The translations under genes and the position numbers were made by a program. DNA of 15,824 nt from Streptosporangiaceae bacterium (GTDB lineage: Bacteria > Actinomycetota > Actinomycetes > Streptosporangiales > Streptosporangiaceae), in the NCBI GenBank assembly GCA_030038715.1, contig JASHSO010000442.1, positions 1 to 15,824 of the forward strand. Direction: 5' to 3'. Below the pieces are notes generated by a model, which made no database searches, was not told the DNA's origin, and saw only the letters and a program-made list of their open reading frames with translations. Of this stretch, positions 484 to 8,069 are shown one piece after another. Each line of letters opens with the position of its first letter. Positions within the stretch are counted from its first letter, which is position 1.

Positions 484-489
484 TATAAT
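484..489 (+). promoter_or_regulatory. Perfect -10 box TATAAT upstream of the CHAD gene
   Basis: TATAAT matches the housekeeping -10 consensus exactly, in an AT-rich stretch of an otherwise GC-rich region. Transcription would begin near 496, giving a short leader that contains GAGG (508-511) 8 nt before the GTG at 520. No good -35 exists at 16-18 bp, so the promoter may depend on the strong -10. Confidence 0.55.
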
Positions 490-519: not shown

Positions 520-2097
520 GTGCGAAATGGCTCGTGCGAATTTGTACTCGATGACGCCGCAGCCGGGCCTGACGAGCTGGTGGCCGCGGCGCTTGAGCCT
601 GGCAGCGACGTTAGCTGGGCCGACGGCGGTCCCGTACGGACGTGCCGCAGGGCCTGGCTGGACACCTTCGACTGGAGACTGTACCGGGCCGGGCTGACGC
701 TCGAGCAGGTGAGCGGTCGGGGATTCGCAGACCTGACGCTGACCGGTCGCGACGGCGAGGTACTCGCGACCGAGCGGATCGGGGCTGGCGCCAGCGGGGT
801 GCGCTGGCCGAGTTTGCTTAGCGGGCTGCCGAGCGGCCCGCTACGTGAGCTGCTCGAGCCTGTTGTCGGCGTCCGAGCCCTCGCCCCGGTTGCCCGGGCC
901 ACCAGCAGGATCGACGAGCGCCGCGCGCTAAACGCCGAGGCCAAGACCGTCGCCAGGCTGGCGGTCGACCGCATGTCGGTGACGTTCCCGGCGCGCGCGG
1001 TCGTGCCGCCGCGGCTCTCGCTGGCGCCTGTGCGCGGCTATCAGGGCCAGGCCGACAGGCTAGGTCATGCGCTGGCGCACGTGCTCGGAATCAGCTCCGG
1101 TAGCGGCTCGGCGCTGGACGCCGCACTGGCCGCGGCGGGTCGTCGGCCAGCCGATAGAGGCGGCAAGGGCGCCGAGGTCCAGCTCACGCCGGCGATGCCG
1201 GCGCCGGTCGCGATGGTCGCCATCCTCGACGCGCTGGTGGACACGATCGAGGACAACGTGACGGGCGCAGTCCGTGACATCGATACCGAGTTCCTCCACG
1301 ACCTTCGCGTGGCCGTGCGCCGCACCCGGTCGGCGCTCAAGCTGGCGGGTCACTGCCTGCCCGTTGGGCTCGCGCGCCGGTTCCGGCCCGAGTTTCGCTG
1401 GCTGGGTGACCTGACGACGCCGACCAGGGACCTCGATGTGTACTTGCTGAGCCTCCCCGGCATGATCGCTGGCCTGGTCGCGGCGTCGGAGGCTGATCTC
1501 GTCCCGTTGCGCGACTACCTGGCACGCTCGCGGGCAGCCGCGCACCGCGATCTGGCGCGTGGCCTTCGCTCGGCGAGGTTCGCCAGGCTGATCCGGGAGT
1601 GGCGGACCGAACTGGCCGCCGTGCGACCTAGCCGGAAGGATCAGACGGTGGCGCGGCTCGCGGATGGCCGAATCACGGCCGCGAACAGGAACGTGCTGCG
1701 GACGGGCCGGCTGATCACCGCCGCCTCGCCGCCGGCCGACCTGCATGAGCTGCGCAAGCGCTGCAAGGAGCTGCGCTACATGCTGGAGCTATTCGGCTCG
1801 CTGCACGACCCGGCCCGGCGGTGGCAGGCAGTCAGGGAGCTGAAGGCACTGCAGGACTGCCTAGGCGAGTTCCAGGACGCGCAGATCGAGCGGGAGGAGA
1901 TTGGCGTGTTTGCGGAGCGGATGCTGGCCGAGCGCAGCGCGACGGCGGCCACGCTGCTGGCCATGGGAGAGATCGCGGCGGGACTTGCCAGGCGCCAGCG
2001 GCACGCCAGAAGCGTGTTCGACCTGCGGTTCGCCGACTTCGCTGGCCCGGCTAGTCAGGCCCGGCTGGCCGCACTGGCGAGGACGGCGGCCGCGTGA
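520..2097 (+). CDS. CHAD domain protein with degenerate N-terminal CYTH domain
   Basis: 525 aa, GTG start with GAGG 8 nt upstream. The C-terminal half (about 225-510) is a CHAD domain, an all-helical histidine-rich fold known to bind inorganic polyphosphate and to target polyP granules. It shows EFLHDLRVAVRRTRSAL at 257-273 and the second basic helix LHELRKRCKELRYMLEL at 408-424, then LQDCLGEFQDAQ near 454. The N-terminal about 150 residues resemble a CYTH triphosphatase fold (WLDTFDWRLYRAGLTLE at 46-62), but the protein lacks the opening ExExK metal/phosphate motif, so catalysis is doubtful. The stop overlaps the next start by 4 bp (GTGA), so CHAD protein and ParA-type ATPase are translationally coupled. 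Inference: a polyP-granule protein positioned or regulated by its ATPase partner. CHAD assignment is firm, CYTH moderately so. Confidence 0.9.
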   Translation: MRNGSCEFVLDDAAAGPDELVAAALEPGSDVSWADGGPVRTCRRAWLDTFDWRLYRAGLTLEQVSGRGFADLTLTGRDGEVLATERIGAGASGVRWPSLLSGLPSGPLRELLEPVVGVRALAPVARATSRIDERRALNAEAKTVARLAVDRMSVTFPARAVVPPRLSLAPVRGYQGQADRLGHALAHVLGISSGSGSALDAALAAAGRRPADRGGKGAEVQLTPAMPAPVAMVAILDALVDTIEDNVTGAVRDIDTEFLHDLRVAVRRTRSALKLAGHCLPVGLARRFRPEFRWLGDLTTPTRDLDVYLLSLPGMIAGLVAASEADLVPLRDYLARSRAAAHRDLARGLRSARFARLIREWRTELAAVRPSRKDQTVARLADGRITAANRNVLRTGRLITAASPPADLHELRKRCKELRYMLELFGSLHDPARRWQAVRELKALQDCLGEFQDAQIEREEIGVFAERMLAERSATAATLLAMGEIAAGLARRQRHARSVFDLRFADFAGPASQARLAALARTAAA

Positions 2098-2840
2098 AGA
2101 TCTTCGCCACGTACAACATCAAGGGCGGCGTCGGCAAGACGTCGACCGCCGTCAATCTGGGGTACCTGGCGGCCAGGGACGGATTCCGGGTGCTGCTGTG
2201 GGACCTGGACCCGCAGGGCGCAGCCAGCTTCCTGTTCCGGATCAAGCCCAAGGTCAAGGGGGGCGGCAAGGCGATCATCAGCGGCGCCCGGGCCATCGAC
2301 GCTGCGATCAAGGGCACGGACTACGACAACCTGGACCTGCTGCCCGCCGACTTCACCTACCGCAACCTGGACCTGCTGCTGGACAGCGCCAAGCGTCCCG
2401 AGCGCAAGCTCGCCAGGCTGATCGATCCGCTGAAGGCCGAGTACGACCTGGTCTTCCTGGACTGCCCGCCGAGCATTTCGCTCCTCTCGGAGAGCGTGCT
2501 GCACGCCGCTGACGTGCTGCTGGTCCCGCTGATTCCCACCACGCTGTCGGTACGCACACTCGACCAGCTCGCCGAGTTCGTGGCCGGCTTCAACGGGCAC
2601 CGGCCCGAGGTGCTGGCGTTCTTCTCCATGATCGACAGGCGTAAGCGACTGCACCTGCAGGTCTCGGCGGAGCTCCCGGAGTCTCGTGCGGGCTTCGCCA
2701 CCACCGCGATCCCCGCGCTGTCGCTGATCGAGCAGATGTCGGTGCGCCGCGCGCCCATCACGGCGTTCGCCCCGCGCAGCATCGGCGCCCGCCGGTACGC
2801 CGACCTCTGGCGGGAGGCACGGCAGCGCGCCGGGCTGTAG
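2094..2840 (+). CDS. ParA/MinD-family ATPase coupled to the CHAD gene
   Basis: 248 aa, GTG start inside the stop of the CHAD gene. It is a deviant Walker A ATPase: KGGVGKTS at 10-17 with signature lysine K10, switch I DLDPQGA at 37-43, and Walker B LVFLDCPP at 119-126 with D123. There is no N-terminal helix-turn-helix, so it is the small ParA/Soj/McdA-like class and not a plasmid ParA that represses its own promoter. The C-terminal part keeps the usual AIPALSLIEQM...RRAPITAFAP and a final basic helix. The family uses ATP-dependent dimerisation on nucleoid DNA to segregate or space cargo. No parB or parS is adjacent; the only partner is the CHAD protein, which suggests the cargo is polyphosphate granules (inference). 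A gap of 58 bp separates it from a convergent gene. Confidence 0.88.
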   Translation: MKIFATYNIKGGVGKTSTAVNLGYLAARDGFRVLLWDLDPQGAASFLFRIKPKVKGGGKAIISGARAIDAAIKGTDYDNLDLLPADFTYRNLDLLLDSAKRPERKLARLIDPLKAEYDLVFLDCPPSISLLSESVLHAADVLLVPLIPTTLSVRTLDQLAEFVAGFNGHRPEVLAFFSMIDRRKRLHLQVSAELPESRAGFATTAIPALSLIEQMSVRRAPITAFAPRSIGARRYADLWREARQRAGL

Positions 2841-4511: not shown

Positions 4512-4587
4512 ACCGATTGCGGAGGCGAGCGGCTCGCACGCGGAGCATCCTGTAAGGCAGGAGTTCTGAGTGTCAGGAGGGGGGCCG

Positions 4588-5091
4588 GTGAGCCGCAGGA
4601 TGCTTCGGCTGGAGGTTCCGGTCATCCCGGAGCGAATGATGTTCCGGGTGCACGATCCCGATGCCGACATCGACTCGCCCGGGGCGCCAGGGCCGCCGGT
4701 CGATGCCCTGATTAAGTCCAGCCGCGATCAGCTCATCATTTCGTGTGCGCAGGAGCACCTCGGCGTGCAGCTCACCATCGAGGAGTGGGACGACGCGCCG
4801 CCGCCGTTCAGCGACGGCTACGAAGACGAGGCTAAGTGCGTGCTTTACTTGCGGGGCTGCCTGACGATCGACATGGGCTCGGCCGGGCGGGCCGTAGACG
4901 GGCTGCGCCTTAGCGGCGGTGTGGGCGACTACGGCGTCCGGGTCTATACCAGGAACCGCACGGCAGCGCTGCAGAGCTACGGCGAGCTGTTCGAGCAGCA
5001 CGCCGATCCGCTGAGCGACGAGTTTCAGCAGGCGCGCAAGGAACTGGAGGGACTGGAGCAATACCTCATGCAGCTCTGGCGCGAGTCTTGA
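4588..5091 (+). CDS. Hypothetical protein, 167 aa
   Basis: I chose GTG 4588 because AGGAGG (4575-4580) lies 7 nt upstream; GTG 4570, six codons earlier, also has an AGGAG at 6 nt and cannot be excluded. The protein is soluble, with no signal peptide or membrane helix. It is acidic in the middle (EEWDDAPPPFSDGYEDEAK) and ends in GVRVYTRNR...LEGLEQYLMQLWRES. The final pattern, a G-x-VRV strand followed by (E)xYLxQLW, recalls a widespread group of uncharacterised actinobacterial beta-rich proteins, but I cannot name it. It is flanked by the methyltransferase remnant and by a convergent DUF3040 gene whose stop lies 15 bp downstream. Function unknown. Confidence 0.75.
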   Translation: MSRRMLRLEVPVIPERMMFRVHDPDADIDSPGAPGPPVDALIKSSRDQLIISCAQEHLGVQLTIEEWDDAPPPFSDGYEDEAKCVLYLRGCLTIDMGSAGRAVDGLRLSGGVGDYGVRVYTRNRTAALQSYGELFEQHADPLSDEFQQARKELEGLEQYLMQLWRES

Positions 5092-6844: not shown

Positions 6845-7342
6845 GTGCCCAGCTCCCAGCCGACCCTCACGAAGCCGATCGAGACCAGGCGGCCGCACAG
6901 CGGCTCCGGGCCTGGCGCGGCCGACATCGCTGCCGTCGCTATCGGCGGCGGCCTCGGCAGTGTTGCGCGCTACCTGCTGGGGGCCGCATTCCCCGCGGGC
7001 AGCGGCTTCCCGTGGGCGATCTTCGCCGTGAACGTGTCCGGCTGCTTCTGCCTCGGGCTGCTGATGATCTACCTGCTCGAAGTCTGGCCGCCCCGCAGGT
7101 ACCTGCGGCCGCTGCTGGCGATTGGTCTGCTCGGCGGCTACACGACGTTCTGCACCTACGCGGCTGGCGTCATGCTGCTGCTGACCGGCCGAGCCGCGGC
7201 CCTGGCCGACGCCTACGCATTGACCAGCATCCTGGCGGCGCTCGTTGCCGTATGGGCCGGCCTCAAGTGCGGCCGGGCAGCCGCCCGGCGGCCGGCCCGG
7301 CTCGGCAGGGCCGACCACGCGAGAGGCGGCCGGAGGACATGA
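6845..7342 (+). CDS. crcB: Fluoride channel FluC/CrcB, first paralog
   Basis: 165 aa, GTG start with GAGG four nt upstream. Four membrane helices (about 28-46, 56-80, 88-110, 118-140) carry the FluC signatures: AVNVSG with pore Asn63, and GGYTTFCTY with the phenylalanine-box positions F102 and Y105. The usual second Phe is Tyr here. FluC dimers export fluoride passively in the inner membrane. The N-terminus (25 extra residues with K, RR) and C-terminus ([15 protein letters not shown]) are strongly basic, predicting both ends in the cytoplasm. First gene of a three-gene operon; its stop overlaps the DUF190 start (ATGA). It begins 86 bp after the radical SAM gene. No fluoride riboswitch was recognised upstream. 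Confidence 0.9.
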
Positions 7343-7680
7343 GGCTGGAAGGGGCTGCCCGGCGGATCACCATCTTCATCGGCGAGTCCGACCGCTACAA
7401 CCACAAGCCTCTGTACGCCGAGATCGTGCACCGCGCCCACCGGCGCGGGCTGGCCGGCGCCAGCGTGTTCCGCGGCCTGGAGGGTTTCGGGGCATCCTCC
7501 CGCATCCATACCAGCCGGCTGCTGTCGCTGAGCGAGGACCTGCCGCTCGCCATCATCATCGTGGACACCGCGGAGCGGGCTGACGCGTTCCTCGACGAGG
7601 TGGCCGACCTGGTCACCGGCGGCCTTGTGATCGTCGACGATGTCCAGGTGCATGCCTATACCGGCGGCAGCAGCCCGTGA
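7339..7680 (+). CDS. DUF190 (UPF0166) PII-like protein of the fluoride operon
   Basis: 113 aa, ATG start overlapping the crcB stop; GGAGG sits just upstream. It matches DUF190 almost throughout: [60 protein letters not shown] and [13 protein letters not shown]. The family has a PII-like ferredoxin fold and is commonly encoded next to crcB genes, where a regulatory or sensing role is assumed but not established. Soluble and cytoplasmic. Its stop overlaps the second crcB start (GTGA), so all three genes are translationally coupled and should be made in fixed ratio. Confidence 0.9.
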
Positions 7681-8069
7681 TCGTGCTTGCTGTGCTAGCT
7701 GGCGGCATGCTCGGCGCGCCCGCCAGGTACCTGGCCGACCGAGCGCTCCAGGCCAGGCATGACAGCGTGTTCCCGTGGGGCACGTTCGCTGTCAACATGA
7801 CCGGGTCGGTGCTGTTTGGATTCCTGCTCGGCGCGCAGCGTCATCTGGGCCTGCCCTCGGCCGGCTTCGCGGTGCTGGGTACGGGTTTCTGCGGCGGGCT
7901 AACGACGTTCTCGACGTTCGGGTACGAGACCTTGAGGCTGCTCGAGGACGGCGCGGTCGGTGAGGCCGGGATCAACGTGATCGGCAGTCTCGCTGTCGGC
8001 GTGCTGCTGGCCTGGCTCGGCTTCAAGCTGGCCGGCGCGCTCTTAGCCGCGACTCTCCCGGCATCCTGA
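7677..8069 (+). CDS. crcB: Fluoride channel FluC/CrcB, second paralog
   Basis: 130 aa, GTG start in a 4-bp overlap with DUF190. Four membrane helices with FAVNMTG (pore Asn40) and the canonical [12 protein letters not shown] (phenylalanine box F78, F81). Unlike the first paralog it has almost no tail, and its positive charges lie in loops 1 and 3 ([19 protein letters not shown]), predicting both ends outside. The two paralogs therefore have opposite predicted topologies, as expected for a FluC heterodimer built from two fixed-orientation subunits. The operon ends here; menF starts 45 bp further. Confidence 0.92.

Follow-up and report, generated by a model that had tools for sequence, protein, structure and literature searches.

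Polyphosphate (polyP) granules are a bacterial phosphate and energy store, and in several species the cells space them or move them in step with the cell cycle. We analysed a 15,824-base stretch of DNA (the window), namely contig G000:C60 from a 607-contig assembly with 72.7% completeness, in which the gene of a CHAD-domain protein overlaps that of a ParA-type ATPase. The first-pass annotation of this DNA had suggested that the ATPase positions polyP granules. The CHAD-ATPase coupling was found to be conserved across phyla, and we consider it reasonably probable that the CHAD protein serves as the adaptor through which the ATPase spaces or segregates polyP granules.

The window ATPase has in common with the ParA/MinD cargo-positioning systems a deviant Walker A motif, a ParA fold and a cargo-associated neighbour gene. 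The available part of PMC10241942 defines this motif, with its signature lysine, as xKGGxxK[T/S], and describes a positively charged disordered N-terminus of the partner as the part that usually contacts the ATPase; the main text of that paper contains neither polyphosphate nor CHAD. The locus differs from McdA-McdB in that its partner is a CHAD protein and not McdB, its proposed cargo is a phosphate polymer granule, and its partner has no basic disordered N-terminus. The fold and the Walker motifs are shared with Soj/ParA of the ParABS systems; however, the window clade carries WDLD, RxKPxVKGG, DRRKxLH and IEQM-RAP where Soj differs, and no parB gene was found beside parA among the 15 other open reading frames (ORFs) scanned in the window.

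For polyP granules, the excerpted text of two papers reports that their spacing in Pseudomonas aeruginosa depends on AlgP (PMC9239181, PMC13052382). The likeness to our proposal is that polyP granules are positioned via a link to the nucleoid, but AlgP itself is a histone H1-like DNA-binding protein, unlike a ParA-type ATPase. In its excerpted text, the latter paper, a 2025 review (PMC13052382), counts whether polyP positioning needs ATP among the unknowns and names no ATPase. Phosins with solved structures are CtCHAD (6qv7, 6qva) and Streptomyces PptA (6rn5), and S. lividans pptA is described as forming one transcript with ppk and a NUDIX gene (PMC8003754, in excerpt). The same gene company as here (parA, CHAD in the form of CYTH-CHAD, and ppk) has already been published for the folD-ppk-parA-CHAD cluster of Acidithiobacillus (PMC10892726; PMC6416229), a likeness that concerns gene content. 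The available passages of these two papers interpret the cluster in terms of polyP metabolism and copper resistance, or of a PPK-linked adenylate cyclase, and do not propose granule positioning. In the open-access literature, a scope that leaves out subscription papers and most preprints, no CHAD/polyphosphate-ParA positioning system was found to be reported.

The pair sits at the left end of the window on the + strand, with the following features.

520..2097, + strand: CHAD protein gene, 525 aa, GTG start; TTM/CYTH-like N-terminal domain plus CHAD domain
520..1140, + strand: TTM/CYTH fold, residues 1-207; ExExK motif missing, DTFDWRL motif kept
1219..1899, + strand: CHAD domain (Pfam PF05235, residues 234-460), from the Pfam scan
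1288..1323, + strand: first CHAD motif EFLHDLRVAVRR; H260, R263 and R267 correspond to the CtCHAD polyP residues H253, R256 and R260
1744..1779, + strand: second CHAD motif HELRKRCKELRY; R419-Y420 correspond to CtCHAD R418-Y419
2094..2097, + strand: overlap GTGA, shared by the CHAD stop and the ATPase start, from the sequence
2094..2840, + strand: ParA-type ATPase gene, 248 aa, GTG start
2121..2141, + strand: deviant Walker A KGGVGKT (K10, K15; residues 10-16), from sequence and alignment
2445..2462, + strand: DLVFLD (D118-D123), presumably the Walker B region, from sequence and alignment

The places of both genes, the 4-bp GTGA overlap and the Walker lysines K10 and K15 agreed with the first-pass annotation.

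Conservation of the CHAD-ATPase pair

The ATPase clade, of which 114 loci including the window were examined (L179 and L029 denote one locus, which was counted once), was separate from Soj/ParA in the tree, and ordinary Soj was therefore ruled out as the identity of the ATPase. Those near relatives of the window ATPase that carry a name were from Streptosporangiaceae. A CHAD gene was directly upstream in 83 of the 114 members, 80 by our own CHAD hidden Markov model (HMM) and 3 more by Pfam, and the pairs occurred in Actinomycetota, Gammaproteobacteria, Alphaproteobacteria and Desulfobacterales. L121, whose CHAD match comes in two pieces, is counted among the 80. Measured over these 80 pairs, the spacing between the CHAD stop and the ATPase start was -4 in 51 and -1 in 7, and it ranged from -23 to +48 across all of them.

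The same pattern was seen in the separate draws. Among 60 genomes of relatives, 20 including the window's own had a close ATPase (E <= 1e-30), and CHAD was directly upstream in 19 of these. When the phylum was sampled (396 genomes), the ATPase was found in 28 genomes at E <= 1e-40, with CHAD upstream in 17 of the 29 loci besides the window's; the conservation of the adjacency, which the first-pass annotation had proposed to check in actinobacterial genomes, thus holds there and in other phyla as well. The gammaproteobacterial class draw (369 genomes) gave the ATPase in 53 genomes and 54 loci, with CHAD upstream in 37 by our own HMM and in 3 more by Pfam. These three Pfam-rescued neighbours (G655, G593, G702) were short CHAD-only proteins. 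Because our own HMM overlooks short CHADs, the HMM-only counts are lower bounds, including that of the Soj-like control below; a permissive CHAD rerun gave, beyond the pairs, weak matches at most (best E 0.26).

The profile scan of named genomes gave at least 80 loci. Among the matches listed, 12 were at 41-65% identity and 68 were Soj-like at 27-38%; a CHAD gene immediately preceded the ATPase in 8 of these 12, whereas the same CHAD HMM found it at none of the 68 Soj-like loci, whose flanks vary in extent. In L033, one of the 12, the sequence starts 365 nt before the ATPase at a contig end, and the upstream gene cannot be judged. The recurrence over phyla, compared with 0/68 for the Soj-like loci listed, ruled out a pairing by chance or an oddity of one strain, the latter being the outcome that would have told against the first-pass proposal.

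It can also be speculated that the two genes are only co-regulated, e.g. by phosphate supply, and act apart, with the ATPase serving ParB or another cargo elsewhere. The 31 of 114 relatives in which no adjacent CHAD was found would fit such a case. However, the tight CHAD-ATPase spacing is kept across phyla and no CHAD stands beside the 68 Soj-like genes listed, and we consider it very improbable. That the ATPase partners a ParB elsewhere is likewise unlikely. The first-pass statement that no parB or flagellar/chemotaxis gene is near was borne out, since neither ParB nor flagellar/chemotaxis families were reported in the 15 other window ORFs (ParB was not sought genome-wide). At least one other ParA, a Soj-type gene at G000:C565, is encoded in the window's own genome; the ORF before it was interpreted as a XerD-type recombinase, and what follows it lies beyond the contig end.

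The tree distances of CHAD and ATPase were correlated over the 80 pairs (r 0.79), and also within the 40 actinobacterial (r 0.875) and the 38 gammaproteobacterial pairs (r 0.741), each value being above all 1000 permutations, an agreement that co-inheritance alone would also give. Two pairs per genome were present in G739 (L218, L229) and in G432 (L135, L145); the pair was therefore duplicated or acquired as a unit. Eleven plasmid records matched the ATPase, 6 of them from Paracoccus and the others from Marinobacter, Sphingomonas, Pontibacter, Halomonas and Novosphingobium. All six Paracoccus plasmids had the gene order CHAD, ATPase, CYTH; in four, a NUDIX gene is also annotated, either between these genes or after them. 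Extended CHAD-ATPase-CYTH/NUDIX loci on these plasmids are L280 5484-8651 and L285 2473-6249, and in P. marcusii CP157 phoU and phoB are close to the pair. No annotated CHAD was found near the ATPase match on the Marinobacter and Sphingomonas plasmids; the Pontibacter match is at the record end, with its upstream side outside the record, and the Halomonas and Novosphingobium stretches around the match are unannotated.

Association with polyphosphate genes

The gene order PPK1-CHAD-ATPase was found in L163 and in L029, with a PPK2 gene facing in the latter. In L246, PPK1 ends 7 nt before the ATPase and no adjacent CHAD was found; in L107 (5743-8281), genes for PhoU_div and a Pit phosphate transporter come after the ATPase, a 48% relative, and no CHAD adjoins it.

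The association was also seen at the level of genomes. In a test that ignores kinship, PPK1 (PF02503) was found in 95 of 100 ATPase-bearing genomes (77/80, and 18/20 in a further set) vs 44 of 70 ATPase-less ones (p 1e-7); the two genomes of the further set that lacked it were the window's own and G036. When the comparison was limited to assemblies with a completeness of 90% or more and a contamination of 5% or less, which leaves aside the unrated gammaproteobacterial ones, the counts were 17/17 and 10/10 vs 33/48. CHAD (PF05235), again with kinship ignored, was present in 25/28 ATPase-bearing vs 157/368 other genomes of the phylum draw, and in 49/53 ATPase-bearing gammaproteobacterial genomes (one by a broken fragment) vs 12/63 ATPase-less ones. 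The ATPase-less comparison genomes (70 for PPK1, 63 gammaproteobacterial for CHAD) were taken from the same draws by handle order. Given this company, the CHAD-ATPase unit very probably acts on polyP.

Acting on polyP need not mean moving granules. The ATPase may instead control polyP metabolism, organising or switching PPK1/CHAD complexes, at which polyP is synthesised or broken down, as BcsQ does in cellulose synthesis. The loci in which the ATPase adjoins PPK1 without CHAD (L246), PhoU_div and the Pit transporter (L107), or CYTH and NUDIX genes (Paracoccus) are consistent with such a role, and the ATPase has a weak similarity to the BcsQ profile; we regard this explanation as unlikely.

Protein features and the proposed positioning of granules

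The CHAD domain matched Pfam at 174.1 bits (cut-off 25.6), and its nearest solved structure was C. tepidum CtCHAD, whose polyP complex is 6qva. H260, R263, R267, R303, R419, Y420 and K442 were invariant in 23 of 23 aligned CHAD sequences; the polyP-contacting roles of the CtCHAD residues are described in PMC6537752, as excerpted. Judged from these residues, the protein would bind polyP and coat granules via its basic CHAD domain. Its N-terminal half is probably non-catalytic. ExExK, which we take to be the catalytic motif of CYTH/TTM enzymes, is missing from the window protein, and the pattern was found in 1 of 80 pairs, in ORFs trimmed to the last 500 residues so that some N-termini were outside view.

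The ATPase matched AAA_31 at 121.6 bits and has the ParA fold. KGGVGKT was invariant in 27 of 27 aligned ATPases, five of them Soj-like, and we take DLVFLD to be the Walker B motif. The C-terminal part (residues 170-248) is strongly basic, with an isoelectric point (pI) of 11.65.

The step from acting on polyP to positioning granules is one that we infer because the commonest neighbour of the ATPase carries a polyP-binding domain. In the proposed mechanism, the CHAD protein would coat the granules through its CHAD domain, ATP-bound dimers of the ATPase would form on the nucleoid, and the granule-bound CHAD protein would stimulate the ATPase. As a result, granules may be spaced along the nucleoid or divided between daughter cells, much as carboxysomes are by McdA. 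On the broader proposal, that the whole clade is a dedicated ATP-driven spacer or segregator of polyP granules, usually with a catalytically dead TTM-CHAD protein as adaptor, and spread over Actinomycetota, Pseudomonadota, Desulfobacterales and possibly Acidobacteria, our judgement is evenly balanced.

The ParA fold and the basic C-terminal part would also suit a reading in which nothing is actively spaced: either a passive ATP-dependent tether of granules to the nucleoid (cf. AlgP), or polyP/CHAD signalling through the ATPase to the segregation of chromosomes. The excerpted text of PMC6537752 and PMC13052382 reports polyP granules from the region of the nucleoid. Nevertheless, a tether has no obvious need for a conserved hydrolysis site, and the Walker residues are invariant in 27/27; we consider this quite unlikely.

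Several observations weigh against active positioning of granules through the CHAD protein. The window CHAD protein begins with MRNGSCEFVLDDAA, a strand starts from residue 6, and the basic disordered N-terminus expected of a partner is missing; of the N-termini of 22 CHAD proteins viewed, that of L034 was basic-looking. The PRNVR stretch of Soj, with its DNA-contact positions, is not retained in the ATPase, being PALSL in the alignment, where other basic residues are present. Adjacent CHAD was not found for 31 of 114 relatives, L033 with its contig end among them. Several such members have CHAD elsewhere in the genome, but no CHAD was found anywhere in 3 of 28 ATPase-bearing actinobacterial genomes or in 4 of 17 unlinked gammaproteobacterial ones, with a broken fragment alone in one more, and an Alcanivorax genome has the ATPase and no CHAD at all. 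Furthermore, no PPK1 was found in the window's own genome (assembly 72.7% complete), and the co-occurrence tests take no account of kinship. Finally, the ATPase is missing in 157 of 182 CHAD-bearing actinobacterial genomes and in many PPK1-bearing ones; polyP binding and storage are therefore possible without the ATPase, and CHAD proteins often act in its absence.

The neighbours of the CHAD-less members were mixed (aminotransferase, AMP-binding, NtrC-type regulator, PhoU/Pit, hydrolase and others), and no shared alternative partner was found among those scanned. In the CHAD-less subgroup L258, L259 and L261, the ATPase is directly downstream of a large gene; in L258 and L261 this gene encodes an NtrC-type response regulator.

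Taken against these points, the positioning of granules suggested by the first-pass annotation is partly supported by the conserved pair, the non-Soj ATPase, the kept polyP residues and the company of CHAD, PPK1 and phosphate genes, while the partner's missing N-terminal feature and the 31 members without adjacent CHAD speak against it.

Surroundings of the pair and significance

The first-pass annotation had also assigned the pair a shared promoter with a perfect TATAAT.

484..489, + strand: TATAAT hexamer, candidate promoter element, single copy in the window

The hexamer is present, but the promoter scan gave it no -35 and chose a different hexamer pair at 452-480, and in three relatives of the same genus neither TATAAT nor the searched variants were found within 140 nt upstream. 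Conservation of the TATAAT as a promoter is therefore unsupported; one promoter common to both genes is plausible from their overlap. When 16 regions upstream of the pair were examined, the window's among them, 5 had a repeat with 11-nt spacing, TTAAC-N6-TTAA[CT]. Its carriers were L115, L294, L295, L116 and L117, where it lies about 60-80 nt before the script-chosen CHAD start; neighbouring DNA held 3 sites in 351,344 nt on both strands, some of the upstream sites included. The window has no full repeat, but a TTAAC half-site at 452-456. To our eye the repeat resembles PhoP or GlnR boxes, hinting at phosphate or nitrogen control.

The window has 74 ORFs of at least 80 aa, of which 15 besides the pair were judged genes and scanned for families. 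These included an alpha/beta hydrolase, a methyltransferase piece, a Rv2578c-family radical SAM protein, a FAD oxidoreductase and a sigma-70 factor, together with chorismate-binding, TPP-enzyme, enolase-like and AMP-binding genes, which we read as a menaquinone set. At 6845-8069, an ORF with a DUF190 domain lies between two CrcB-type genes, such pairs being presumably fluoride channels. A 173-aa ORF at 4570-5091 had no Pfam/NCBIfam match at E 0.001.

The conserved CHAD-ParA pair offers a concrete, gene-sized hypothesis for granule positioning, and it is present in cultured hosts, e.g. Paracoccus marcusii, Rhodothalassium salexigens and Prauserella muralis. It suggests that phosphate stores may be actively distributed or apportioned by the cell. 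If this is true, the cargo of ParA, besides DNA and protein bodies, would include a storage polymer, a new cargo class.
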